From Elusimicrobiota bacterium (GTDB taxonomy: Bacteria > Elusimicrobiota > Elusimicrobia > UBA1565 > UBA9628), in contig JACRDN010000007.1 of assembly GCA_016218575.1 (NCBI GenBank), positions 1-52,673 of the forward strand: a stretch of 52,673 nucleotides of DNA, written 5' to 3'. Position numbers and translations under genes: made by a program. Every line of letters begins with the position of its first letter. Position 1 is the first letter of the stretch. Below are positions 7,570 to 52,605 of the stretch, piece after piece. The notes beneath the pieces are model-generated. The model searched no databases. It saw nothing but the letters and a program-made list of their open reading frames with translations, and had not been told where the DNA came from.

Positions 7570-8145
7570 ATGAGCCGAATTGGAAGAATGCCTGTCTCAA
7601 TCCCGAAGGGAGTCGAAGTGAGCGTCGCCCAAGGCGTGCTCACCGCCAAGGGGCCCAAGGGCCAGCTCAAGCAGGTCTTGAACCCCCTGGTGACGGCCGA
7701 GATCAAGGACGGAGAGGTCTGTTTGAGCGCGGACCTGAAGGCCGCCAAGGACGCCTCGGCCATTTACGGCATGTCCCGCGCCCGGGTCGCCAACACCTTG
7801 CAGGGGGTGGCCGACGGATTTTCAAAGACCCTCGAGATCATGGGCTTGGGCTTCAGGGCCGAGGTCGCTGGGCAGAAGCTGACTTTGAGCCTGGGCAAGT
7901 CCCATCCCGTGGTTTTCGAGGCCCCCAAGGAGGTCGCGCTGTCCGTGGACGCCAAGAAGACCCAGATCACGGTGAGCGGTCCCGACAAGGACTTGGTCGG
8001 CGCCACGGCCGCCAAGATCCGCGAGCTGCGCAAGCCGGAGCCTTATAAAGGGACCGGCATCCGCTATCAGGGAGAATTCATCCGCAAGAAGGCGGGCAAG
8101 ACCGCGGCTGGAGCCAGCGGAGCGGCCGGCGGCGGCAAGAAGTAA
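7570..8145 (+). CDS. rplF: 50S ribosomal protein L6
   Basis: A 191-residue L6 beginning MSRIGRMPVSIPKGVEV, containing two repeated alpha-beta domains and the family C-terminus GTGIRYQGEFIRKKAGKTA. A short Gly/Ala tail follows. L6 lies near the sarcin-ricin loop and factor-binding site. Confidence 0.97.
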   Translation: MSRIGRMPVSIPKGVEVSVAQGVLTAKGPKGQLKQVLNPLVTAEIKDGEVCLSADLKAAKDASAIYGMSRARVANTLQGVADGFSKTLEIMGLGFRAEVAGQKLTLSLGKSHPVVFEAPKEVALSVDAKKTQITVSGPDKDLVGATAAKIRELRKPEPYKGTGIRYQGEFIRKKAGKTAAGASGAAGGGKK

Positions 8146-8161
8146 CCCGTGAGGATGACTC

Positions 8162-8512
8162 ATGAAAGATAAAGAGACTCGACTTCAGTACCGCAGGGAG
8201 AGAACCCGCGGCAAGATCCGCTTGAAAGCCGGGGATCGGCCGCGACTGACGGTATACCGCAGCCTGAAGCATCTCTATGCCCAGGTCGTGGATGACAATT
8301 CCGGCAAGACCTTGGCCTGCGCCTCATCCTCGTGCAAGGAGTTCAAGGCCGGCAAAGACCTCTCGGCGGCCAAGAAAGTAGGGGAGCTCGTGGCGAAGAA
8401 GGCCTTGGCCGCGGGCGTCAAGAAGGTCGTTTTCGACCGGGGGGCCTACATCTACCACGGCAGGATCAAGACCTTGGCCGAGGCGGCTCGAGCCGGAGGG
8501 CTGGAATTCTAA
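8162..8512 (+). CDS. rplR: 50S ribosomal protein L18
   Basis: A 116-residue L18 with the basic N-terminus [11 protein letters not shown], then [20 protein letters not shown] and a C-terminus [25 protein letters not shown]-type, all diagnostic. It binds 5S rRNA together with L5. Sixteen bases after rplF. Confidence 0.97.
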
Positions 8513-8530
8513 TTTTCTTGGAGACAATGC

Positions 8531-9082
8531 ATGGCAGAGATTGCGGCGGAAAATAAATCGTCCCAGACGGGGCACAGGCCCCAGCACGGGCCCAGGCGCT
8601 CGCGCTACGCCGAGGCCCGGGAGGAGGGCGGCTTCAAAGAGACCGTTGTTACCATCAATCGCGTGGCCAAGGTCGTCAAGGGCGGGAAGAGATTCTCTTT
8701 CAGCGCCTTGGTCGTGATCGGCGATGGCCTCGGCACCGTGGGGGCCGGGCTCGGCAAGGCCCGCGAGGTCCAGTCCGCGATCCAGAAAGGCAACGCCCAG
8801 GCCCGCAAAAGCCTGATACAATTTCCGCTGGTGGAGGGCACGATTCCGCACGAGATCATCGCCAAGTACCGGGCCGGCAAAGTCTGGATGAAGCCGGCGG
8901 CCCCGGGAACGGGAGTCATCGCTGGCGGGGGGGTGCGCGCGGTTTTGGAGGCGGGCGGAGTCAAGAATATCCTGACCAAGAGCTTGGGCAGCTCCAATGC
9001 CTTCAACGTTGTGGGAGCGACCTTGGAATGCCTGCAAAAGCTGCGCACCAGCGCTGACATCGCCAAGCTCCGGGGCAAATAA
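8531..9082 (+). CDS. rpsE: 30S ribosomal protein S5
   Basis: A 183-residue S5. [20 protein letters not shown] starts the double-stranded RNA-binding domain (about residues 36-55). [15 protein letters not shown] and [21 protein letters not shown] are conserved. S5 contributes to decoding fidelity. The gene is followed directly by rplO; the usual rpmD is missing between them. Confidence 0.97.
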
Positions 9083-9083
9083 C

Positions 9084-9548
9084 ATGGCTGATTCAAAGAT
9101 CGATTTAAGCGCGTTGAAATCCAAACCAGGGGCCCGCAGGGAGCGGCGCCGGCTGGGCTTGGGCGAGGGCTCTGGCCTCGGACAGACCGCCTCGCGCGGC
9201 CAGAAGGGCCAGCGCAGCCGCTCCGGCGACGGCAAGCTGGTGGGCTTCGAGGGAGGCCAGACCCCGCTCTTGCGGCGGGTGCCCAAGAGGGGATTCACCA
9301 ATGCCCCCTTTAAGGTCCGCTACCAGATCGTGTCCTTGGCCGATATCGAGCGGGTCTTCAAGAACCAGAAGGAAGTCTCCCTGGACTCCCTGAAGATACA
9401 CGGGCTCGTCCGCGGCCCGCGCCCGGTGAAAATCCTGGGCGACGGAGACGTGACCCGCGCTTACAAGATAGCCGCCCACGCCTTCTCGGCCAGCGCCCGC
9501 GAGAAGATCAAGAAGGCGGGGGGCTCGGCCGAAGAGGTGACGGGGTGA
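9084..9548 (+). CDS. rplO: 50S ribosomal protein L15
   Basis: From the ATG at 9084, one base after the rpsE stop, the protein has 154 residues. RRLGLGEGSGLGQTASRGQKGQRSRSG is the Gly/Arg-rich extended N-terminus of L15 and GFEGGQTPLLRRVPKRGFTN the family signature. The longer in-frame ORF from 8997 would lie inside rpsE and is rejected. Stop overlaps the secY GTG start. Confidence 0.96.
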   Translation: MADSKIDLSALKSKPGARRERRRLGLGEGSGLGQTASRGQKGQRSRSGDGKLVGFEGGQTPLLRRVPKRGFTNAPFKVRYQIVSLADIERVFKNQKEVSLDSLKIHGLVRGPRPVKILGDGDVTRAYKIAAHAFSASAREKIKKAGGSAEEVTG

Positions 9549-37020: not shown

Positions 37021-40000
37021 ATGCTGCCGCGCAAAGCGATAGCCGGGATGCTGGCTTTCTCCCTGGCCTTCCTGTCTCCCGGCGTGCCCTGCTATCAGGC
37101 CCTGGCCGCTCAAGTCGGCGCGGCGCCGAAGGCTGTCGTCGTTCTCCAGCCGGCCGCGCCCATGAAGCGGAGCGCGGCCTTCGTGGCGCGCCTCAAGCGC
37201 GGCGCAGCACCCCTCCTGCGCGTTCTCGCAAGATCGCGCCAAGCCCCGGAAGCCCTTCCAGTTCAGGCCGAGGCTTTGCTCGGCCCTAGCGCGGTCGTGA
37301 TGCGGCAGGAGCTAGAGGCTCCGCCTCGGGAGGGAGTCTCTCCCCAAAAATTCCTATCGAGGACGCTGGTCGCTGCGGCATTAGGGCTCTCCTTGGCCCT
37401 AAGCTCCGCTCCGGGCCCTATTCGAGCCGAGCCCACACCGCCCCCGTCGCCCGCCGCCCGCGCTCCCGCGGCCGCGACTCTTCAGCCGGCCTCGGCAGGA
37501 ATGACCGCGCGGGTCGAGGGGACGCCCCTGGAATTGGGCGGACGCGGGCGCCTGGTTTTGACGGTCAGAAACGGCGGGAAGGCTCCCATGAGGCTCAACC
37601 TGTCCCGGGCGGCCCTGGCCGGCCTTTTCCCGGAGGAACTCGAGCTTCAAGGGCAAGCCCCCGATCCCATCGTGTTGAGCCCCGGCCAAACCCGGGAGCT
37701 GTCCTTCGAGTTCATCGCCTTCGGCTCGGGAGAGCTCAAGATCGGGGGGGAGCTCCTGGGAACGGCGGTCGCTCCGGTCTCGGTGGCGGTGAAGTCCCCG
37801 CTCACCCCCGACTGGGAGCAGAAAGGCTTCCGCGGCCCCAAGGACGTGGTCCAGAAAAGCGAGCCGGAATGGTCCTGGGCGTTCGCCCTGCCTTTGCTCG
37901 TGCTCGCAGTTCTGGCCGCGGAGCGATTTTTAAGGAGCGCGCCCGCCCCGGCCCAGCCCTTCCCGGAGAAAGAGCCGGTCCTCTCCCGCGCCGAGGCCGG
38001 GATGGCCGTTCTCGAGGACAACCTTGAGAGCCTGCCGGACCGGGAATTTTACGCCGAGTACTACAAAATATTGAGCTCCTTCCTGGTGGACTACCACGGC
38101 CTCCCGGTCAAGGAGCGCCACGCGGCGGGGCTTGCCGCGGACCTCAAGGCCTCTCGAAAGCTCGGCTCGGGCCAGCTCGAGGTGGCCGCGGGCTTGGCCC
38201 GGCGGGCCGAGATGGTCCGCTTCGGAGGGGGGGACGCGTCCGCGGACCGGCGGCGCCGGGATTTGCGATCGCTCGGGGACTTGACGCGCAGCGTGGCGGG
38301 TCGTCCCGGAGGCGAAGCCCCTAGGGGGGCTTCGGGGCTCTTGGGAATATTGGGCTTTCTCCCAATTGAAGCGGCTTCATTGCATTTCGGCAACCCCTGG
38401 GCCCTCATTCTCTTCGTGCCGCTGACCGCCTTCATCCTCTGGAAATGGCGCGGGCGCCCTGCCGGGCTTCTCATGCCCCAGGCCTTGCCCGCGGCCCTCC
38501 GCCCCAGCTTGCGCCAGAGGCTCGCCTTCCTGCCGAACGCGCTCCGGGTCGTGGTTCTCGGGCTTTTGATCTTGTACATGGCCCAGCCCCAGCTGGGAGT
38601 CGTCCGGCAGGAGGCCTTCATCGCCTCGACGGACACGATTCTCGAGATAGACAGTTCCGGCAGCATGGCGTCGCCCTACAGCGCCCAGGGGGGCAAGAGC
38701 CGTCTGCAGGCCGCCAAGGAATCCGCCAAGGCCTATGCCGTGGAGCAGCGCCGTGGAGGCGGCAACCGTCTGGGTCTATTCAGCTTCGCGGAGAACGCGG
38801 AGTTCGAGGTGATGCTGACCTTTGACACGGACGCCTTCCTCGCCCAATTGGAGGGGGTCGCCGTGCGGGGCGGCACGGCCATAGGCCGGGCCGTGCTCGC
38901 GGGAGCGGCCCAATTCGTCGAGGACGACCTCAAGAATCTCGACGACTCCGGCGATCCGCGCGTCAAGGAGGCAAAACGGATATTGGCCGGCCGAGGCCTT
39001 CGCAAGGCCTTGGCTTACCTCAACGCCCAGCCCGACTTGGCGGCGCGCGTTCTGCGTTCCGAGCGCCAAAAGGTCTTGGTGGTATTCAGCGACGGCGATT
39101 CCAACGTCGGGATCAGCCCCTTGGAGGCGGCCCGGATCGCGAAAAAGCTCGGCATCAAGATTTACACGGTCGGAATCGCCAGCGATGCCGGCGGGCCCGG
39201 CGTGGACGAGGCCACGCTCAAGAAAATGGCGGAGATCACGGGGGCCCGCTATTTCCGCGCCGCAGACGCGGAGGCCTTGACGCAGGCCCTCCTTGAGATC
39301 AACGCCTTGGTCAAAATCCCGTCCAAAGTCCTGGCCGTGCCCATGGTGAGGGATCTAAGGCAGGAGCTGGCGATCCTGGCGTTACTTTTGGTGGGGCTCG
39401 AGTTGACGCTTTCCAGCACCTGGCTGCGCGTCCTGCAGGGGCTGGCGTTTCTCTCCCTGCCTCTGATGTCGCAACCTGCCGCGCTTTCGGACGGCAATCT
39501 TCTTTTCCACCAGGGGCGCTACGGCGAGGCCGCGGTCCGCTACGCCCGGGCCTTGGAGCGGTACCCGGACATGGCCGAGCTCTACTTCAACATGGGAAAC
39601 GCCTACCTGAGCCTGGGCGAGGCCGAGAAGGCGGCGCGGTGCTACCAGGAGTTCCTGGCCCGCTCCGGGGATTCCGAGCTCGCGGCCCAGGCCCATTACA
39701 ATAGGGGTCTGGCGGCTCTCCTGCAGAAGGACTTGGCCGCGGCCCGCGACGCCTTCAAGCAGGCCCTGCGCTTGAACCCCGGGGACGCCGACGCGCGTTG
39801 GAACCTGGACTTGGTCAACCAGCTGCTAAAGAAGAAGCAGAAGAATCATGACGGAAAGAAGAGGGATGGAGAGAATAGAGAGGGCGAAGACGGCCGCAAT
39901 CGAAGCTCTCAAGAGCATCCCGATCCGCGCAAAGGCGAGCCCTCGGCCCAATCCGCCGCCAAGCCTTCCCAGGACCAGGGAAAGACGGGCCTTGAGGACC

Positions 40001-43000
40001 TCCAGAAAGGCCTCCAAGATCAGGAGAAGGACGACTCCAAGCCCTGGAAGAAGGGCGGTATTCCCACCGAGGCGCCGCCGAGCCTTTGGGGACTGCTGGC
40101 CTTGCCCCTTCTGGCTCCCGGATTTTTGGGCTCGGGAGTGGCCTTGGCCTCCCCGGCCTGGCTTTGGGCGGCGGCCATCCTCCTGCCCATAGTGGCCTGG
40201 CTTCTGGCCTACGGGATACACAAGAAAATCCAGGCGGCCAAGTCCGCGGCCCCGGCCGTGGCCCCCGCGAGCTTCGGCGCCTGGAGGGGGGCGAGGTTGT
40301 ACAAAAACAAAGCGGCTCTCCTCCTGCTTGGCGTTGGGCTGCTATGTCTGGCGGCCGCGCGCCCCATGGGCGGCCAGCAGGACGTGGCCGTGAGCTTCGG
40401 AGGAAACGACGTCCTGCTCGACTTCGACCTTTCCCTGAGCACGCGCCGTTCTGAGCTAGGGCATTTCAAGGCCCACGGCGAGGGCTTAACGCGCTTCGTT
40501 TCCCGCCTGCAAGGCGCTGACCGCGTGGGGCTTATCCTGTTCTCGGGCACGGCCAAGACCGCGGCTTCCCTTTCCATGGACTACGGCACCCTGCAATACC
40601 AACTCCAGCATTTGGAGAGCGAGGCCGAGCGCCTCGAGGACGGCTCCAAGCTCAGCGCGGCGGTGCGCCAAGCCATTGCCGCGTTCGTGGCGGCCAAAGA
40701 CCTGGGAGACAGGGAGTGGATTCTGGTCCTGATCTCGGATGGGGACGTGCCGGACTACGATGTCGAGGCCGCCCTAAAATCCGTCCGCCACGCCTCGAGA
40801 TTGGTGATTTACACGATAGGGATGGGGTCCCCCGAGGGCAGCCGCATCAAGGTCCCGAGCCGCGATGGGAAATCGCTCCAGGATCTCGTGGACTCCACCA
40901 CGGACAAGCCCGCCGTGACCTTTCTCAACGAGAAAAACCTGCGCCGCCTGGCCGAGTCCACCGGAGGGGCCTATTTCCGCGCCGAGGGCGAGGGCTCCAT
41001 GGAGCGGATTTTGGCCCAGGTGGCCGGCCGTCACGAGGGCCGGCAATGGAACGTCCTGCGCTCTCCCCGGGACATCGGGGTCTGGCTCGTGGCGCCGGCC
41101 TTTCTTCTCTTGCTGCTTGAAAGCGTCCTAGGGACGAAGCTCAAGGGCGAGGACGACTCGGCGCAAGATAAAAACTCCCTTCTGCACGGGGGAGTTTTGC
41201 TCGGGCTGGGGACTATTCCCCTGCATTTCTGGCCCATGATTTTCCCCTTCGCGCTTCTCACCGCCGCCCTGGGAGTCCTGCTTTGGCTGGATTGGCGCGG
41301 CGGGGGTTCGGTGATGCGCGGCCTGCGCCGGGCCTGGCAGAGGCGCCGGAGCGGGGCCGAGGGGGCCCTCCTCAAGGACCTGGAGCATCTCTTCGACATC
41401 CGCGAGGCCGACATCCCTTCCTTGGCCGCGTTCATGAAGGCTTGGTCCCAAGCGGGCGGGAGCCGCCGGGGAGAGCTCGCGGCCGAGGCCCTGGAGGATT
41501 CCCAGCTTTGGCGCGAGAAGCTCGTCGCGGCCTGGCTTTACGGCAGTTCGGACGAGTCCCAGGAAAAGATTCTCGCGGCGCTTGAGGCTGGGCATGCGAG
41601 GTATCTCCAATCTCCGCAGGCGGTCTGGGAGAGGCTTCTTGAAAACCGCGCGCGTTTTACCTGGCTTGAGGACGGCGCCATGCCCGCGAGGATGATGGCA
41701 TTGTCGCGGGCCTTGGGAGCCGCCGAGGCGCCCGCCGCCCCTCCGCGCCTTCCCTGGGGCCGGCGCTTGGCTCTGCTCGCGGCCGCCCTTATGCTCGTCC
41801 CGGTCCTGGGCTTGGCCGGCTTGTCCGGCGCCAAGACCGTCCAGTATTTCCAGGACAGGGCCATGGCGGCGCGAGGCGCGGTCCGGATATTTTACGGGGA
41901 GGACGCTTACGCTCTTTACGACCGTTACGCCGACCCGCGCATCGGCAGGCTGGTCCTGCCGGCCCTCTCGCGCTGGCCCCTGGGTGTGGCGGCCGGGGAC
42001 ATGGAGGCCGCGGTCGAGGCGCTTTCCCATTCCAGCGATCCCAAGGCCGAGAACCTGATGGAACTCATCTTCAAGCACGCCTCGGAGCTGGGGCTTTCCC
42101 TCCGGGCCCGCGCGCTCATGACGGCGGCCTTGGTGCGCTGGAAAAACGACGGAGTTTGGGCCGTTCTGGTCGAGGCGACCGCCGGGGAAAATCCCGATCC
42201 CCGCAGGCTGGAGCAGGCCGCTGAGATGCTGGAGGCCGCCGCGGCCATGGGAGGGCCCGCAGCCGAGCGTCAGATCCTGAACTTCTTGATTCGCGCCGAG
42301 GAGCCCGGCCTCCAGTCTCTGGCCGCCGAGGCCCTGTACCGTGTCCTGTGGTCCGCGGGCAAAAGAGACCAATTCTTTCCAGAGCTCATTGGCCTCCAGC
42401 GCGAGTTCGCGGACAAGGGCCTGGCCAATCTGTGGCTCGAGAAGATTCTTCTCAAGCGTTTGAGCTCTGCCCCCATGGAGGAAGAAGAGCTTTTCAAGGC
42501 TCAGGACCTGGTCCAGATTTTCATTAACAAGGCTTCTTCGTTGGATGCGGCGCGCCGTAAGAATCCATCCAGTCTGCTCGAGACCGCGCTCGAGCTGTTC
42601 CGAGAAGAGATCTCGGCGGTGGGGGGAGCCGCCAAGGCCCCGGCCCCGCTCTTGGCGGCGGCCAGGAACGCCTTCAACATCGCGGCCAAGGACCTGGTAA
42701 GCGAGGGCGAAACGGAGTTCTCGGGCCTGCACGCGCGCCTGCTCAAGGGGAAAGTGGTTCTGCCGGACGCCTTGGACTCGGGCTTCGTGGATTACGAGGC
42801 GAGCCCCGCCGCGGCCGCTCCCGGGGCCGGCGTTCCCGTCTACAGGGACGCCTACAAGCTCGGGCATCTGAAAAACCTGCGCCGCGCCGTCGCCGCGGAG
42901 GTCAGGGCCGCGGTCTCCGCCAAAAGCATGACTTCCCGACGTTGGGAGTACGCGCGCCGCTCCTTGGGCGGTCTTAGGGCCCTTTTGGCCTTGGGTTCGG

Positions 43001-45282
43001 CTTTGGGGGTGAAAGAGGGAAACCTCGCCGAGGACTGGGCGGCCGACGATTTCAACCGGGCCCTTTCCCAGAGCTCGCACGCCTTCCGCTTTCCGGCCAT
43101 GCTCCTGGCGGCCCTGCAGAGCGAGGGCCTCGTCGCGCGACAAGGTCTCGACCGCTCGGCCGGGGAAGCCCTTTGGCCCCAAGCCTACGGCCCGAAGGAC
43201 CTGGCGAGATTCGAGGCGTTTTTCCGCAAGCTCGCGGCCTCGGGCCGGGCCTGGGGTCGCGGCGGCGAGTCATCGGCCCTTTCTTGGGACGAGAAGAAAT
43301 ACTTGAGCTATCTATTGGACGCGGTTGGCAGCGCGCGGGCGCGGCATTTCCCGGCGGAGGGCCCCGCCCGTCCGGCGGATTTCTGGGAGGGCCTCGAGCG
43401 CGCCGGCGAGGAGAGCCTGGCCTTGGCCCGCCTCTCCGTCGCCTGTCAAATTCGCAAGAAGGACGCCGCGTTCCAGGGCCAAGCCCTGCGTTGGGCGATG
43501 GGCTGGGCGGGCAAGCCTCAGGCCCGTCCGGCCTTGGGAGACCTCGAGCCCTTCCTCGACGACTTGTTCAACGCAGCGGAGTACGAGGAGCAATTGGCCC
43601 TACTGGCCGAGGCCGGGCGTCTGGGGCCGGGCGGCAGGCCCGCCGCGCTTCTGCGCAAGAAGCTCGATGAAGCCGTGGCCAAGGCTTTCAGCGATGCGGC
43701 CTTCTATTTCCCGGCTCACTCCTTGGAGGCTCTGGCCCGGAAGCAGCACGGCTACACCAGACTGCAGATACGGATATTCATGACTAGGCTCCGGGAAGCG
43801 GCGGATGCGCTCGCGCAGGAGCAGGGGCGCTTGAGCCAACTCCAAGCCGATGAGCTCCGGCGCATGGAAGGCTTGGCCCCCAGGTTCCTGGAACTGGGCG
43901 CTCAATTAGGGATGCCCGCGGGAGATACCGCGCCGGAGCTCACGGCCGAGGAGATCAACGAGCTTCTGGCGGCCGGTTCGGCCGCGCTTTCCTTCGAGTT
44001 TTTCAAGGCTCTGCACGAGGAGGGCCTGATCCCGGCGCAAAACTCGGACGCGGGCTCGGCGGACAATTTGCCGGGAGCCTACTCGCGGGAGGACCTGGTA
44101 AATCTCCGCGCCTTCCTGGCCCGGACCTTGGCCGCGGGCAAGGGTTGGAACTATGACGGGAGCCGGCCGCCGCTCGAAGCGAGCCAGAAAGCGTATCTCG
44201 AGGCGGCTATAAAGACGGTGGAAAGGCTCATCGAGCGCCCGCGCTCGTCTCCGTTGTATGGTCTGGCGGGCATGGGCTTTGGTATTCTCCAGGGCGCGGC
44301 TTGGGGCGCCTCGGCGTGGCTGGCGCTCGCCGCGGCGACGGTTTATCTCCTGTGTCGCGCTTACGCGCGGTGGAAGGCGAGCCGTCCCGCGTCCCTCGCG
44401 AGCTTCGCGGCCAAGAGGTCGCCGGCCCAAATCGAGAAGCGCGCCGGGTCAATCGAGCTCGCGGCCCGGCGTTTGGCCGACTCCATGTCCTGGGGCTCGG
44501 CCCTCTCCGCCTTCATCGGGCTCGGGGGAGTGGACGTCGCCGACTCTCGGCCCTACGAGAACGGGGAAGATGCCCGTTTCCTGGACGTGAAAACCACGGC
44601 CCGGCTCGATACTCCTTACCTCAAGCAGACCGGGCTTGAGAAGGACATGCCGGTCGTGGTCATCGCGGACCGAAGCCGCTCTTCTATGGTCTGGGCCCTG
44701 GGAGCCCGGAAATCCCAGGTTATCGAGGAGCTCGCCGGGGCCCTAATGCTCGCGGCCGCGGCCGCGGGGCGCAAGGCGGGTTCGGTCGTTTTCTCGGATA
44801 AAGTCGAGTCCTGGGTGCTCCCCCGGCAAGGGGAAGACTCGGCCCGGCTCATGATCCGGAGGCTTTTGGCGGCAGAGCCCTCGGGGAAAGGCACCGATTT
44901 GAAGGCGGCCCTTGAGCTGGCCCTGAGCCGGCTCGGCTCGCGCAGCACCGTGGTCGTGGTCTCGGATTTCCTGGCCGAGGGGTTCGCAAGCGCGCTCATG
45001 GCGCTCGGCGAGCGCCATGACGTGCGTCTGGTGCGGGTTTTTGACCCGGCCGAGCTCAAGCCCTTGCCGGACGTGGGCCTGGTCCGGGTCCAGGACCCGG
45101 AGTCGGGGGCGGTCCGATTGGCCGATACTTCCGATCCCGCCTGGCGCGCGGCCGAGGCCGCGGCCTTGAGCCGGCGCGAAGACAATCTGAAAAGAATTTT
45201 TTCCCGGACCTCGGCCCGGGTCGCCGCGGTTTCGACCGCAGGCGACTATTGGGCCGCATTCTTAAAGGAGTTTTCAAAATGA
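37021..45282 (+). CDS. Giant BatD-like/BatA/TPR/BatB/DUF58 fusion protein
   Basis: A single 2753-codon frame. Order: signal peptide (1-31), second hydrophobic stretch (~115-130), a BatD-like beta domain (~160-265), transmembrane helix (285-302), a helical DUF4381-like part (~325-420), then BatA with two membrane helices (~456-528) and a vWA domain with MIDAS DSSGS (D544). TPR repeats follow (~823-930), a Lys/Glu/Gln-rich linker (~940-1010), BatB membrane helices and a second vWA (DLSLS, D1136). A ~1000-residue mostly helical part of unknown type follows (1370-2400, one helix at ~1586-1610). A membrane segment (~2413-2440) precedes DUF58 (RPYENGEDARFLDVKTTAR at 2510; vWA DRSRS at D2550). In other bacteria these are five separate genes beside moxR. 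The role of such systems is membrane- or periplasm-linked chaperone-like assembly or stress resistance. The end overlaps moxR by ATGA. Confidence 0.9.
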   Translation: MLPRKAIAGMLAFSLAFLSPGVPCYQALAAQVGAAPKAVVVLQPAAPMKRSAAFVARLKRGAAPLLRVLARSRQAPEALPVQAEALLGPSAVVMRQELEAPPREGVSPQKFLSRTLVAAALGLSLALSSAPGPIRAEPTPPPSPAARAPAAATLQPASAGMTARVEGTPLELGGRGRLVLTVRNGGKAPMRLNLSRAALAGLFPEELELQGQAPDPIVLSPGQTRELSFEFIAFGSGELKIGGELLGTAVAPVSVAVKSPLTPDWEQKGFRGPKDVVQKSEPEWSWAFALPLLVLAVLAAERFLRSAPAPAQPFPEKEPVLSRAEAGMAVLEDNLESLPDREFYAEYYKILSSFLVDYHGLPVKERHAAGLAADLKASRKLGSGQLEVAAGLARRAEMVRFGGGDASADRRRRDLRSLGDLTRSVAGRPGGEAPRGASGLLGILGFLPIEAASLHFGNPWALILFVPLTAFILWKWRGRPAGLLMPQALPAALRPSLRQRLAFLPNALRVVVLGLLILYMAQPQLGVVRQEAFIASTDTILEIDSSGSMASPYSAQGGKSRLQAAKESAKAYAVEQRRGGGNRLGLFSFAENAEFEVMLTFDTDAFLAQLEGVAVRGGTAIGRAVLAGAAQFVEDDLKNLDDSGDPRVKEAKRILAGRGLRKALAYLNAQPDLAARVLRSERQKVLVVFSDGDSNVGISPLEAARIAKKLGIKIYTVGIASDAGGPGVDEATLKKMAEITGARYFRAADAEALTQALLEINALVKIPSKVLAVPMVRDLRQELAILALLLVGLELTLSSTWLRVLQGLAFLSLPLMSQPAALSDGNLLFHQGRYGEAAVRYARALERYPDMAELYFNMGNAYLSLGEAEKAARCYQEFLARSGDSELAAQAHYNRGLAALLQKDLAAARDAFKQALRLNPGDADARWNLDLVNQLLKKKQKNHDGKKRDGENREGEDGRNRSSQEHPDPRKGEPSAQSAAKPSQDQGKTGLEDLQKGLQDQEKDDSKPWKKGGIPTEAPPSLWGLLALPLLAPGFLGSGVALASPAWLWAAAILLPIVAWLLAYGIHKKIQAAKSAAPAVAPASFGAWRGARLYKNKAALLLLGVGLLCLAAARPMGGQQDVAVSFGGNDVLLDFDLSLSTRRSELGHFKAHGEGLTRFVSRLQGADRVGLILFSGTAKTAASLSMDYGTLQYQLQHLESEAERLEDGSKLSAAVRQAIAAFVAAKDLGDREWILVLISDGDVPDYDVEAALKSVRHASRLVIYTIGMGSPEGSRIKVPSRDGKSLQDLVDSTTDKPAVTFLNEKNLRRLAESTGGAYFRAEGEGSMERILAQVAGRHEGRQWNVLRSPRDIGVWLVAPAFLLLLLESVLGTKLKGEDDSAQDKNSLLHGGVLLGLGTIPLHFWPMIFPFALLTAALGVLLWLDWRGGGSVMRGLRRAWQRRRSGAEGALLKDLEHLFDIREADIPSLAAFMKAWSQAGGSRRGELAAEALEDSQLWREKLVAAWLYGSSDESQEKILAALEAGHARYLQSPQAVWERLLENRARFTWLEDGAMPARMMALSRALGAAEAPAAPPRLPWGRRLALLAAALMLVPVLGLAGLSGAKTVQYFQDRAMAARGAVRIFYGEDAYALYDRYADPRIGRLVLPALSRWPLGVAAGDMEAAVEALSHSSDPKAENLMELIFKHASELGLSLRARALMTAALVRWKNDGVWAVLVEATAGENPDPRRLEQAAEMLEAAAAMGGPAAERQILNFLIRAEEPGLQSLAAEALYRVLWSAGKRDQFFPELIGLQREFADKGLANLWLEKILLKRLSSAPMEEEELFKAQDLVQIFINKASSLDAARRKNPSSLLETALELFREEISAVGGAAKAPAPLLAAARNAFNIAAKDLVSEGETEFSGLHARLLKGKVVLPDALDSGFVDYEASPAAAAPGAGVPVYRDAYKLGHLKNLRRAVAAEVRAAVSAKSMTSRRWEYARRSLGGLRALLALGSALGVKEGNLAEDWAADDFNRALSQSSHAFRFPAMLLAALQSEGLVARQGLDRSAGEALWPQAYGPKDLARFEAFFRKLAASGRAWGRGGESSALSWDEKKYLSYLLDAVGSARARHFPAEGPARPADFWEGLERAGEESLALARLSVACQIRKKDAAFQGQALRWAMGWAGKPQARPALGDLEPFLDDLFNAAEYEEQLALLAEAGRLGPGGRPAALLRKKLDEAVAKAFSDAAFYFPAHSLEALARKQHGYTRLQIRIFMTRLREAADALAQEQGRLSQLQADELRRMEGLAPRFLELGAQLGMPAGDTAPELTAEEINELLAAGSAALSFEFFKALHEEGLIPAQNSDAGSADNLPGAYSREDLVNLRAFLARTLAAGKGWNYDGSRPPLEASQKAYLEAAIKTVERLIERPRSSPLYGLAGMGFGILQGAAWGASAWLALAAATVYLLCRAYARWKASRPASLASFAAKRSPAQIEKRAGSIELAARRLADSMSWGSALSAFIGLGGVDVADSRPYENGEDARFLDVKTTARLDTPYLKQTGLEKDMPVVVIADRSRSSMVWALGARKSQVIEELAGALMLAAAAAGRKAGSVVFSDKVESWVLPRQGEDSARLMIRRLLAAEPSGKGTDLKAALELALSRLGSRSTVVVVSDFLAEGFASALMALGERHDVRLVRVFDPAELKPLPDVGLVRVQDPESGAVRLADTSDPAWRAAEAAALSRREDNLKRIFSRTSARVAAVSTAGDYWAAFLKEFSK

Positions 45283-46775
45283 AACAAGAGATGCCGCGCA
45301 AAATCCTTGCCTTGTCCTTGACTCTCTGCTTGGCCTGCCCCGCTCCCGGATCTGCCGCCGGATTTCTCTCTTGGAGAGGCCAATCCGCCTCCATAGGAGA
45401 AGTCTTGACCATGCTTGGGCGCTCCAAGACCTCTGAAGGCGCCGCGCAGAGCGCCCTCGTTCTTGAGGAAACCTTGACGGGCGGGCCTCGGGGAAGTTCT
45501 CCCGATTTGGCGATTCCTCGAATCGCGGCAGCCACCTCGCGGGAACTTCCAAAATTCTCCCTTCTGAGGGCGAAGCCTCTTGAAGCGCGAAGGACATCTC
45601 CACGACTCGCTCATCCGCCGCTCTGCTCCGTGGGGAAAGGCTTTCTACGCGCCGCCTACTCCACCCCGGCCTTGGTATTCGGAGGGCTGCTCGCCATGGG
45701 CATTTTAGCCTTGAACGCCGCGGGGCTCCTGCCGGATCTCGGCCTAGGCGCGGGTGCGGTCTTCGCGGCGGCTGGCATTCTGGGCGCTTCCTCCGCGAGG
45801 GAATTGCCCGGCGAGGGGGATGATGATCTGAAGGCCGCGCATGAGACCATTCAGAGGATCCGCGCCGAGGTGGGGCGCGCCATCATCGGCCAACAGGAGC
45901 TCGTGGACTCCCTCATCATGGCCGTGGTCCTGCGCGAGCACGTGCTGGCCGAGGGAGTTCCCGGCGTGGGCAAAACCGCGGCGATCAAGGCCTTGGCCAA
46001 GGCGGTGAGGGCTTCCTTCAATCGCATCCAGGGAACCCCCGACCTTCAGCCGGCCGACATAACGGGTTCGGAGATACTGCAGGAGAATCCCGACACCGGC
46101 AGGAGGGGCATGGATTTCAGGCCAGGCCCGATTTTCGCCGAGTTCGTGCTCTTCGACGAGGGCAACCGAGCCACGCCGAGAGCCCAGTCCGCGCTCTTGG
46201 AAGCCATGCAGGAAAGGCAGGTGACCGCGGGGGGAAGGACTTATCCCTTGCCCTTGATTTCCGTTCTCTCCACGCAGAACCCAATCGAGGAGAAGGGCAT
46301 CAACCCTCCTTCCGAGGCCCAGATAGACCGCTTCATGTTCTGGGTCATGGTGCCCCAGCCGGGCCGGGAGGAGCTGGGCCGGATCGTCAAGCTCAACGAA
46401 TCGCCCGGGTCTCTGCCGGAGGTCGGGCCGGTGGCGAGCTTGGAGGAGCTCGACAAGATCCGCGGGCTTTCCGAGCGCGTGAAAGTGGACCAGGCCCTGG
46501 AGGAGTATATCCTGTCCCTCATTTATGCTTTCGAGAGTAAAGAGATCAAACCCCTCCTGAAGCACTACTTTTACACCCGGGCGGCCATCCACATCAGGCG
46601 CGCCGCGCGTCTTCAGGCCCTGTTCCAGGGGCGGGGCTTCGTCCTGCCCGAGGACATCGAGGCCGTGGCGCACCGGGCGCTCCGGCACCGCATGGCCTTG
46701 ACCTACGAGGCCGCGATCGTTCACACTCCCGACAGCCTCATAGACCTGGCGCTTGGAATGGTCCGGATTCCGTGA
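45279..46775 (+). CDS. moxR: MoxR-family AAA+ ATPase with N-terminal signal/membrane extension
   Basis: A 498-residue protein; typical MoxR is ~320. The AAA+ core begins at about residue 185: Walker A GVPGVGKTAAI (226-236), Walker B VLFDEGNRA (290-298; DEINRA is usual), STQNPIEEKGINPPSEAQIDRF (331-352). Residues 1-28 look like a signal peptide (ILALSLTLCLACPAPGSA) and residues ~130-172 contain two hydrophobic segments (ALVFGGLLAMGILALNAAGL, then GAVFAAAGILGA). So the ATPase seems membrane tethered. MoxR ATPases act on vWA partners; here the partner domains are in the preceding fused gene, with which it is translationally coupled. Confidence 0.93.
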   Translation: MKQEMPRKILALSLTLCLACPAPGSAAGFLSWRGQSASIGEVLTMLGRSKTSEGAAQSALVLEETLTGGPRGSSPDLAIPRIAAATSRELPKFSLLRAKPLEARRTSPRLAHPPLCSVGKGFLRAAYSTPALVFGGLLAMGILALNAAGLLPDLGLGAGAVFAAAGILGASSARELPGEGDDDLKAAHETIQRIRAEVGRAIIGQQELVDSLIMAVVLREHVLAEGVPGVGKTAAIKALAKAVRASFNRIQGTPDLQPADITGSEILQENPDTGRRGMDFRPGPIFAEFVLFDEGNRATPRAQSALLEAMQERQVTAGGRTYPLPLISVLSTQNPIEEKGINPPSEAQIDRFMFWVMVPQPGREELGRIVKLNESPGSLPEVGPVASLEELDKIRGLSERVKVDQALEEYILSLIYAFESKEIKPLLKHYFYTRAAIHIRRAARLQALFQGRGFVLPEDIEAVAHRALRHRMALTYEAAIVHTPDSLIDLALGMVRIP

Positions 46776-48533: not shown

Positions 48534-50636
48534 TCACCGCTCTCCCAGAACGGCTTCCTTTTCAAAAATTGCGCCTTGACGGGCGATCCTGAGGGACAAC
48601 TTCTCTCCCGGCTGGAGACGGCTCAAGGCCTGCTCGAGAGCCTCGAAATCCGTTCCGAGGAGGACATCCCCGGACTCTATCCCGGCCCGGGCCGCGGGCG
48701 AGCCGGGCCGGACCGCCTCCACGGCGAGGCCCTTGTCCTGGGCCGTGTCACCGCCGCGGTCCAATACGATGCCGAGCCAAGGGGAGCGCAGATGGCCGAG
48801 CTTCCCATATTGCGCCAGGGCCCTTGCCAAGTCCTCCGAGGAAATGGCCATGTTGAGGCCTTCGGCGCCGGCTATGCCCATGGTGTTGAGGCCGACGATC
48901 TCTCCTTTGTTGTTGATGAGAGGGCCGCCGGAATTGCCGTGGTTGACGGCCGCGTCGGTCTGGACATAGCTTACGTGGCCGTTGCTTCGCTCCCCGATGC
49001 CGCTGATGATTCCCGCGCTCGCCGAAAAGGGCTGGAATTGAGGGTAACCCAAGGCCAGGACTTTCTGCCCTTCGGCCAAGGACGCGGGCTCGGCCAGGGG
49101 AAGCAAGGCCCAGCCCCCGAGGCGGGCCGGGAGCTGAATCAACGCGATATCTTTGTCCGGGTTGATGTCTAGGACGAGCCCCTTCATTTGCCGGCCGTCG
49201 GTAAAGTCTACCTGGACTTGTCCGCCTCGGCCTGCGGCCGCGGCTACGTGGGCGTTGGTGAGGACGAGGCCTTCCGCGGTAATAATGACGCCCGAGCCGA
49301 TCCCCTCGTCAGTGATTATGCGAAGCACGGAGGGCTTGGCCGAGGCTATGGCCGCCTCGTCCGTGAGGATAGGCCTCGGCGCTGGTGAGGTCGGTTTAGG
49401 AGCTAGCGTTGCGGGCTGAGCGGTGCTAGCTACGCGCGGGGCCGGAGCCGCGGGCGCGAGTGCGGGTGCGGCGAATCGAGGGGCCGAGAAAGCGAGAAGC
49501 CCGAAGAAGGCCGCGGCTAAAACCTTGCGGGCCAATCCCGGGGCGCCGGCCTTTTGGCTCGCGCGGGTAAAATAATAGAGATGGGCCAAGGCCCCGATGC
49601 CTATGAGCTGCTTCAAGGCCGGATCCAGCGGGAGGAGGGATATAGCGTTGTAGGCCGCGTGGGCCGCGATCGGGGCGATGAGGCTCCTGGTGCGGTAGGC
49701 GGCATGCGCCAAGGCCAGGCCTAGGATAAGATGCTGGGCCATAAACACGGGTTCTACTCCCCAGCGAGGGAAATGAGCCGCCGTGAATCCCAGGGCGGAA
49801 AGACCGGCCGCCAAGGGGAAGGCCTTCCTTGACAGGAAGGTCGCCAGGGCGAGGGCATTCCTTGCCAAAGGCCCCCAGCTGAAGAGCTCCGGCAAGGCTT
49901 CGAGAACGCGGGAGGCCTTGTTGGAGAGCGGTCCGAGCGCCGCCAATGCGTAGAAGGCGAGCCCGAATTCGACGCCCCGAAAGAGGACTTCCTCGAGGGC
50001 CGCCAGGGCCGGGATCCCAGCCAAGAAGAAGAGCCAAGGGTGCGTTTCGAGGATGCGGGAGGTATCCGCCGGCCCCAGGAAAGCCATGAGCTCGGCGCGG
50101 CCGAGGGCGTCCAAGAATTGGGACGGGACGGCGAGCGGCCAATGATAGAGACGGCAGAGGGCTTCCACGCAGACCTGGGCCAGGGCCCCCAAGCCCGCGA
50201 GGTTGATCCCCCATTGGAGTCCGTAGAGGGCCTGCCTCGGGCGGCTCAGCTCGAGGTGAGGCGGCCCGCCGTTGCGGTCGCGGCGGGCCGAGGGCTTGGG
50301 CTTTGCAAGCGGTTTGGAGAGCTCCAGCCTCAGCGCCGGGGCGGCCGGAAAGGACGGCGGGAGCGTGAGGCCTTGCGTTGAGCTCTCGGCCTCGAAGACT
50401 TGGGCCCCTTGGTCCTTGTCGAGCTCTATTGCGCGGGCCGCGTCTTTGGCGCGCAAGGCCAAGAGCCGTACTGGAAGCCGCGCGGCCAGGGCCGCGACTA
50501 ATTTCTGGAGCCTCGGCCCCGGCCGCGCCGCGCGCGGCGCGGCGGAAAGCGCTTCAGGCGGGAAAGAGGCTAGAAGCAAGGACGCGGACAGGAGCAGGGA
50601 AATCAGCCTCATTGGAAATTGACGCGACTCCGCCAT
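48534..50636 (-). CDS. CPBP intramembrane protease fused to HtrA-type serine protease with PDZ
   Basis: A 700-residue protein. A signal-like segment (MRLISLLLSASLLLASFPPEA from residue 9) is followed by an Ala/Arg-rich linker. Residues ~135-385 are a polytopic CPBP/Abi domain with its three motifs: EEVLFR (215-220), FTAAH (284-288) and HAAYN (326-330). After an Ala/Pro linker (~385-425) comes a trypsin-like HtrA domain (~428-610): H463 in LTNAHV, D496 in DKDIALI, S569 in GNSGGPL. A PDZ domain closes it (~617-695). Both active sites appear complete. HtrA is a periplasmic protein quality-control protease; CPBP enzymes cleave within membranes. The start at 50636 or 50612 is uncertain. Confidence 0.92.
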   Translation of the reverse strand: MAESRQFPMRLISLLLSASLLLASFPPEALSAAPRAARPGPRLQKLVAALAARLPVRLLALRAKDAARAIELDKDQGAQVFEAESSTQGLTLPPSFPAAPALRLELSKPLAKPKPSARRDRNGGPPHLELSRPRQALYGLQWGINLAGLGALAQVCVEALCRLYHWPLAVPSQFLDALGRAELMAFLGPADTSRILETHPWLFFLAGIPALAALEEVLFRGVEFGLAFYALAALGPLSNKASRVLEALPELFSWGPLARNALALATFLSRKAFPLAAGLSALGFTAAHFPRWGVEPVFMAQHLILGLALAHAAYRTRSLIAPIAAHAAYNAISLLPLDPALKQLIGIGALAHLYYFTRASQKAGAPGLARKVLAAAFFGLLAFSAPRFAAPALAPAAPAPRVASTAQPATLAPKPTSPAPRPILTDEAAIASAKPSVLRIITDEGIGSGVIITAEGLVLTNAHVAAAAGRGGQVQVDFTDGRQMKGLVLDINPDKDIALIQLPARLGGWALLPLAEPASLAEGQKVLALGYPQFQPFSASAGIISGIGERSNGHVSYVQTDAAVNHGNSGGPLINNKGEIVGLNTMGIAGAEGLNMAISSEDLARALAQYGKLGHLRSPWLGIVLDRGGDTAQDKGLAVEAVRPGSPAARAGIESGDVLLGTDFEALEQALSRLQPGEKLSLRIARQGAIFEKEAVLGER

Positions 50637-51278: not shown

Positions 51279-51309
51279 AGCGTAACCTTTGGTTGAGGAA
51301 ATCAAAAGA

Positions 51310-51327
51310 GGCCAGCTTGAACTGGCC
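51310..51327 (+). other. Hairpin at the left end of the IS
   Basis: GGCCAG-CTTGAA-CTGGCC forms a 6-base stem inside the IS, six bases before the transposase ribosome binding site (AGGAGG, 51333-51338). Such stems near IS ends can limit translation from transcripts entering from outside. Confidence 0.4.
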
Positions 51328-51348
51328 CACCAAGGAGGTTACGCTCAA

Positions 51349-52605
51349 ATGAAGAATAGCAAAGAGGTGGTCACCCAGGGAAATGCAATGAGCATGCCGT
51401 TCGGGGGAGATCTTCTCAGCGAGGCGATTCGGCTTCGGATTCGAGAGGCGATGACGCAGATCGCCAACGAAGAAATGGACGCCGCGTTGGGAGCCAGGCT
51501 TCACGAAAGAACGGAGAACCGTCGAGGATACCGGCACGGGAGCGAGGAGAGAACGTTAACGACGGGTTCTGGCAAGACGACGTTCAACATGCCGCGTGCG
51601 AAGATATTTGCGGCCGGGGGCGTTGAGCAAGAATGGCAGTCGACGATGATCCCGCGCTACGCCCGTCGCTGTCGCGCGGTGGACGCGGCGCTGTTGGGGA
51701 TGTATTTCGGCGGCGTGAACACGCGCAAGGTGAAACAGGCGATCCGTCCGTTGCTGCGCAATTCGCCGCTGTCGAAGTCGGCGATCTCGCGGCTGATCGT
51801 GAGGCTGAAGGAATACTTCGAGGCTTGGCGCCGGCGGAGTTTGGCTGGGGAGGACGTCCGCTATGTTTACCTTGACGGCATTTGCGTGCGTGTGCGCTGC
51901 GGGGGCAGGACGGAGAGTCTGCCCGTGTTGGCGGTCGTGGGCGTGCGAGCCGATGGGGAGAAGGTCCTCTTGGCTCTAGAGCTGTGTGGTGCGGAGAGCA
52001 CGTCGTCTTGGAAGGGCCTCATCGAGAGCTTGAGTGGGCGAGGCCTGCGTGCCCCGCGGCTGGCGATCATTGACGGCAACCCCGGGTTGACGCAGGCTCT
52101 GGCGCAGACATGGCCCAAGACGCAGCGGCAGCGATGCGCCGTTCACAAGCTGCGCAACCTTCATGACCACGCTCCGAAACGGCACTACGACGAGATCAAA
52201 GACGATTTTCATGCCATCGTCTACGCCGAGAACTATGCCGCGGGTCAGGCGGCCTACGAAGTCTTCCTTGGGAAATGGAAACGCTCGTGCGAAGGCGTCG
52301 CCCGATCGCTGGAGGAAGCCGGCCCGGAATTGCTGGCTTTCTATCGCTATCCACAGAGCCAGTGGAAATCGCTGCGGACCACGAACATCATCGAACGCAT
52401 CAACGGGGAGTTTAGACGGCGGATCAAGACCCAAAGCTCGTTTCCCTCGGAGCAATCCGTTTTAGTCTTGTTGTTTGGGCTGATGGCCTCGGGAATGATT
52501 CGGATGCGGCGCATCGAAGGGCACGCGGATATGAGCAATGTTCCTGCGCTGGCCGCGATTGGAACCGAAGAGCAAGCGGAGGTGAGGCAACTAGTCGCGG
52601 CCTAA
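51349..52605 (+). CDS. IS256-family transposase
   Basis: A 418-residue DDE transposase from the ATG at 51349, preceded by AGGAGG. Catalytic residues lie in VYLDGICVRV (Asp), AIIDGNPGLTQAL (Asp) and TTNIIERINGEFRRR (Glu). RCAVHKLRNL is the conserved CxxH region of the family. It moves the element by copy-paste through a circle intermediate in known members. The frame is intact, so the element may still be active. An upstream in-frame start at 51289 would lie in the terminal repeat. Confidence 0.95.
   Translation: MKNSKEVVTQGNAMSMPFGGDLLSEAIRLRIREAMTQIANEEMDAALGARLHERTENRRGYRHGSEERTLTTGSGKTTFNMPRAKIFAAGGVEQEWQSTMIPRYARRCRAVDAALLGMYFGGVNTRKVKQAIRPLLRNSPLSKSAISRLIVRLKEYFEAWRRRSLAGEDVRYVYLDGICVRVRCGGRTESLPVLAVVGVRADGEKVLLALELCGAESTSSWKGLIESLSGRGLRAPRLAIIDGNPGLTQALAQTWPKTQRQRCAVHKLRNLHDHAPKRHYDEIKDDFHAIVYAENYAAGQAAYEVFLGKWKRSCEGVARSLEEAGPELLAFYRYPQSQWKSLRTTNIIERINGEFRRRIKTQSSFPSEQSVLVLLFGLMASGMIRMRRIEGHADMSNVPALAAIGTEEQAEVRQLVAA

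Follow-up and report, generated by a model that had tools for sequence, protein, structure and literature searches.

Site-1 and site-2 proteolysis are normally split between separate enzymes, and it is not yet clear how the second enzyme receives the product of the first cut. In the stretch of Elusimicrobiota DNA analysed here (52,673 nucleotides, hereafter the window), one gene appeared to encode an intramembrane protease of the CPBP type together with an HtrA serine protease and a PDZ domain, which raises the question of whether this is a genuine gene and, if so, what two such proteases could be doing in one chain.

Domain architecture and predicted topology

The initial annotation had claimed that CPBP, HtrA and PDZ are joined in a single chain, and the open reading frame, strand, frame and Pfam matches bore this out (Table 1). 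The Rce1-like/CPBP family PF02517 matched residues 199–332 (37.8 bits against a cut-off of 22.4, E 2e-9) and Trypsin_2 (PF13365) matched residues 447–583 (109.7 bits, E 2.8e-31). In the window protein alone the Pfam match to PDZ (residues 620–689) was weak and close to the cut-off; PDZ models were matched by all 12 aligned members of the family. The two catalytic sets, described earlier as complete, were indeed found in full, with E215-E216-x3-R220, F284-x3-H288 and H326-x3-N330 in the CPBP half and H463/D496/S569 in the HtrA half. Translation may begin at Met9 (50612) instead of Met1 (50636).

Table 1. Positions in the window of the fusion gene, its parts and its recurring neighbours
Feature	Position	Strand	Remarks
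CPBP-HtrA-PDZ fusion gene	48534..50636	minus	700 aa; start Met1 at 50636 or Met9 at 50612
Signal-peptide-like N-terminal segment, residues ~7-31	50543..50618	minus	in all members with a complete N-terminus
Ala/Pro/Arg-rich extension, residues 32-117	50286..50542	minus	poorly conserved, pLDDT <50
First transmembrane helix, residues 132-161	50154..50243	minus	conserved GGP motif (123-125) before the helix
CPBP/Rce1-like catalytic core	49641..50042	minus	EExxxR 215-220, FxxxH 284-288, HxxxN 326-330
Extra last transmembrane helix, residues ~368-386	49479..49535	minus	after strongly basic loop 355-368
HtrA serine protease domain, residues 431-605	48822..49346	minus	triad H463/D496/S569, GNSGG 567-571, very short LA loop
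Single PDZ domain, residues 620-692	48561..48779	minus	conserved LGI carboxylate-loop-like motif (G622)
MoxR-type AAA ATPase	45279..46775	plus	signal-peptide-like N-terminus; recurring neighbour
Giant Bat-system fusion	37021..45282	plus	2753 aa; two VWA, TPR, DUF58 and other regions; recurring neighbour

The CPBP half was modelled with AlphaFold2 at a pLDDT of 81 and a pTM of 0.76. A fold search of the PDB with this model gave no significant match (the presence of MmRce1 in the library being unconfirmed), and no close solved structure was found for this half by sequence or fold, so that its membership of the CPBP group rests on the Pfam match and the motifs. Like the intramembrane glutamyl proteases MmRce1 and the myxosortase MrtX, it carries EExxxR, FxxxH and HxxxN on membrane helices and scores above the PF02517 cut-off, but it has fewer helices before the core and one extra after it, and an HtrA-PDZ part is attached.

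The fold of the HtrA half matches DegP, DegQ, DegS and AlgW. With DegS and AlgW the fusion shares a trypsin-like domain that is predicted to lie on the outer face, a single PDZ domain, a transmembrane tether and practically no LA loop, whereas those enzymes have one anchor only and lack a second protease. The score against the NCBIfam DegS model TIGR02038 was 122.7 bits, far under the cut-off of 422.95, and the HtrA part thus falls outside the DegS equivalog. NCBIfam models of MarP (Actinobacteria) and MamO/MamE (magnetosome) also match it, and as in MarP and MamO the trypsin-like domain sits behind a multi-pass membrane part. The membrane parts of those proteins are not known to be proteases, in contrast to that of the fusion, a CPBP domain whose active site is intact.

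Net loop charges, averaged over 12 members, were +2.9 for residues 233–271, +2.0 for 314–319 and +5.8 for 355–368, while loops 289–295 and 336–338 and the linker were neutral. As the positive-inside rule places the basic loops in the cytoplasm, and the extra helix at about 368–386 then leads outward, HtrA-PDZ is predicted to lie on the outer face of the membrane; the suspicion that this part is exposed outside was thus supported, at the level of a topology read from loop charges. AlphaFold2 placed helices at matching positions, the last one with low confidence. The linker (residues 387–425) that follows is Ala/Pro-rich, poorly conserved and disordered. At the other end of the protein, the extension has a mean net charge of +6 and the loop charges imply that it lies inside, which conflicts with a cleaved signal peptide, as would be expected from the signal-peptide-like start of every member with a complete N-terminus.

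The extension contains a short family motif, (L/V)F(D/E)(G/N/A), at F81. The related pattern (R)(L/V)(F/Y)(D/E)(G/N) was also seen in three unrelated extended proteins (L130, L041:11353-12105 and L169). A role of FD(G/N) as a lineage-wide tag was considered and rejected, as the enrichment came mostly from the fusion family and only these three cases were seen outside it. Signal-peptide-like starts followed by long Ala/Pro-rich extensions were also observed in this lineage on proteins expected to be cytoplasmic or ordinary membrane proteins, namely MoxR, a second Lon protease, HATPase kinase-like proteins, an AAA-WD40-VWA giant and an MFS transporter (window 45279-46772; contig C17 of genome G000, 73355-76558, i.e. 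L069:13355-16561; L079:6830-8092 and 8089-9273; L129, L131, L132 and L136-L143). The extended Lon recurs in several genera.

Distribution and conservation of the fusion

When 295 genomes of the phylum were searched with the CPBP half, matches were obtained in 24 other genomes, nearly all of the same order; the true relatives of the fusion have frames of about 520 to more than 1000 aa, nearly all of them with the HtrA half. With a profile of the full-length protein, 24 of the 56 genomes of the order, spread over three families, proved to carry the whole fusion in one frame. Three more have it in broken form, interrupted by contig ends in two and, in a complete chromosome, by a linker frameshift in the third. 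All 12 members scanned have the complete architecture, with matches to PF02517 (at E 0.01 or better in each), PF13365 and PDZ models. The recurrence of the whole architecture in many genomes that were assembled separately excludes chance and misassembly, so that the fusion is a genuine gene and no assembly accident.

Both active sites have been retained. E215, E216, R220, F284, H288 and H326 of the CPBP half were identical in 23 of 23 members and N330 in 22 of 23, and the HtrA triad was identical in all 21 members compared. In close pairs, dN/dS was 0.26–0.47 for HtrA, 0.40–0.84 for CPBP and 0.56–1.3 for the linker, which as a rule is less constrained than both protease domains. Trees of the two halves were concordant in their supported groups, which suggests that the CPBP and HtrA halves have been inherited jointly. 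In an HtrA tree that included paralogues the fusions clustered, with a resolution insufficient for a single origin to be concluded; one sequence within the fusion group that counted as a paralogue (L114) probably represents the latter half of a fusion divided between two contigs.

A scan of named genome contigs with the family alignment returned 13 loci, 11 labelled as Elusimicrobia/Elusimicrobiota MAGs and two only as 'bacterium', and a scan of such contigs with the whole window protein found no relative. The former relied on peptide patterns specific to this family, so independent CPBP-HtrA fusions may exist elsewhere. No description of a CPBP protein fused to HtrA or trypsin/PDZ was found in the literature searched. 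The earlier impression that the combination is unusual is supported. Both enzymes are of known kinds, and what is new in the fusion is their combination.

Several other proteases accompany the fusion in its own genome. These comprise a separate M50 (RseP-type) site-2 protease, other HtrAs and six further CPBP proteins, and the genome also encodes several Sigma70_r2-family sigma factors. On contig C11 (L002:398-2469), stand-alone genes for HtrA and CPBP lie on the same strand, with CPBP 266 bp downstream of HtrA. This pair was considered as a precursor of the fusion and rejected, as its CPBP gene, apart from one weak match, lacks a close counterpart in the 119 other genomes of the phylum compared. 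Another CPBP protein of 587 aa (L169:1411-3174) begins with a signal-peptide-like segment and a long extension but lacks HtrA, and a protein of 630 aa (L161:1450-3342), judged by eye, combines two cyclic-nucleotide-binding-like regions with an M50-type membrane metalloprotease.

The MoxR-Bat neighbourhood

In the window, the fusion gene is convergent with the MoxR gene and the Bat chain. An orthologous long MoxR or Bat giant was found within about 8 kb of the fusion at nine of 25 loci, which belong to four genera (g1, g4, g9 and g11), a count in which several loci end too near the fusion gene for judgement and from which the MoxR near the fusion at L119, a shorter paralogue, was excluded. At one locus the fusion abuts the Bat giant on the same strand. 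The genomes, of 2–4.6 Mb, hold one to five MoxR genes each, from which the probability of chance proximity is estimated at about 2% per genome. The link was not seen in genera g2, g8, g12 and g13. To our knowledge, the Bat clusters described so far have no CPBP or HtrA component. From the recurrence of MoxR-Bat systems, the commonest neighbours of the fusion, we infer a functional tie between the two. Gene fusion is a feature that the Bat chains here share with those of spirochaetes, in which Bat gene fusions are known (PMC3557215). Related Bat giants also occur at other loci, and the chain in the window has the appearance of a whole Bat operon. Just upstream of the fusion gene, at the contig end, a transposase-like ORF was seen by eye (51289-52605).

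Possible modes of action

The reading we favour, with a probability of about 45%, is that of a membrane-embedded bifunctional protease, in which a DegS-like HtrA is coupled covalently to an intramembrane glutamyl protease and serves envelope quality control together with MoxR-Bat. On the outer face of the inner membrane, the HtrA-PDZ part would be suspended from the last transmembrane helix, in a build like that of DegS and AlgW, and would probably bind the exposed C-termini of misfolded envelope proteins. HtrA would then trim the outer part of membrane-anchored clients, and the attached CPBP domain could subsequently cut the membrane segment left over. The setting would be envelope-protein stress and quality control, alongside the adjacent chaperone-like MoxR-Bat system. 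As the fusion and all catalytic residues are kept in about half of the related genomes, one machine that cuts in two steps appears probable, and sequential cutting of one substrate is plausible; the order of the cuts, a shared substrate and sensing by the PDZ domain are what we purely infer.

The same two steps could in principle be those of regulated intramembrane proteolysis, as was first proposed for this locus. That the single polypeptide performs both, with an outer-face cut by the DegS-like HtrA followed by a cut by the attached glutamyl protease, seems unlikely to us, and the full signalling scheme, in which a membrane-bound anti-sigma or transcription factor is cut at site 1 by HtrA and at site 2 by CPBP and a signal is released into the cytoplasm, we hold to be quite unlikely. 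It would fit the predicted outer position of a DegS/AlgW-like HtrA with one PDZ domain next to an intramembrane protease with all its catalytic residues, as well as the sigma factors in the genome. DegS and AlgW are, moreover, established site-1 proteases, and DegS and RseP likewise pair an outer-face serine protease with an intramembrane one (PMC7593790), though as two genes and with an M50 metalloprotease, instead of one chain with a glutamyl-type enzyme. However, the flanking genes examined included none recognisable as an anti-sigma gene, and the recurring neighbourhood is MoxR-Bat instead. The RseP-type protease and the other HtrAs, CPBPs and sigma factors already in the genome also mean that the fusion is not needed for ordinary regulated intramembrane proteolysis, which leaves an anti-sigma signalling role speculative.

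Two further explanations treat the halves as separate workers. The chain could be polyprotein-like, its CPBP and HtrA parts being parted after synthesis by a cut in the linker, possibly by HtrA itself; the disordered and nearly unconstrained linker would suit this, and the lineage also fuses genes that are normally separate into other giants, the neighbouring Bat chain among them. We consider it doubtful, since the fusion is kept across three families with agreement between the half-trees, and since the last helix and linker look like a DegS-like tether for HtrA, which would be useful only uncut. Alternatively, CPBP could be a protease for processing or sorting, or do no more than anchor the chain in the membrane, while HtrA alone acts on other substrates. 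For the former there is a precedent in MrtX, which illustrates that bacterial CPBP proteases can serve as C-terminal sorting enzymes (PMC11980579), and for the latter in the trypsin-like proteases carried by the non-protease multi-pass domains of MarP and MamO. The conservation of every CPBP catalytic residue in 22–23 of 23 members makes a mere anchor unlikely, no sorting-tag family was noticed (though without a systematic search), and taken together this explanation appears distinctly improbable.

A natural covalent fusion whose two active sites have been preserved across an order would allow the hand-over between the two cuts to be tested in a single molecule. It would, in addition, represent a CPBP enzyme linked to envelope stress, as opposed to bacteriocins or prenylated proteins, and perhaps a new component next to the MoxR-Bat system, which is itself poorly understood.
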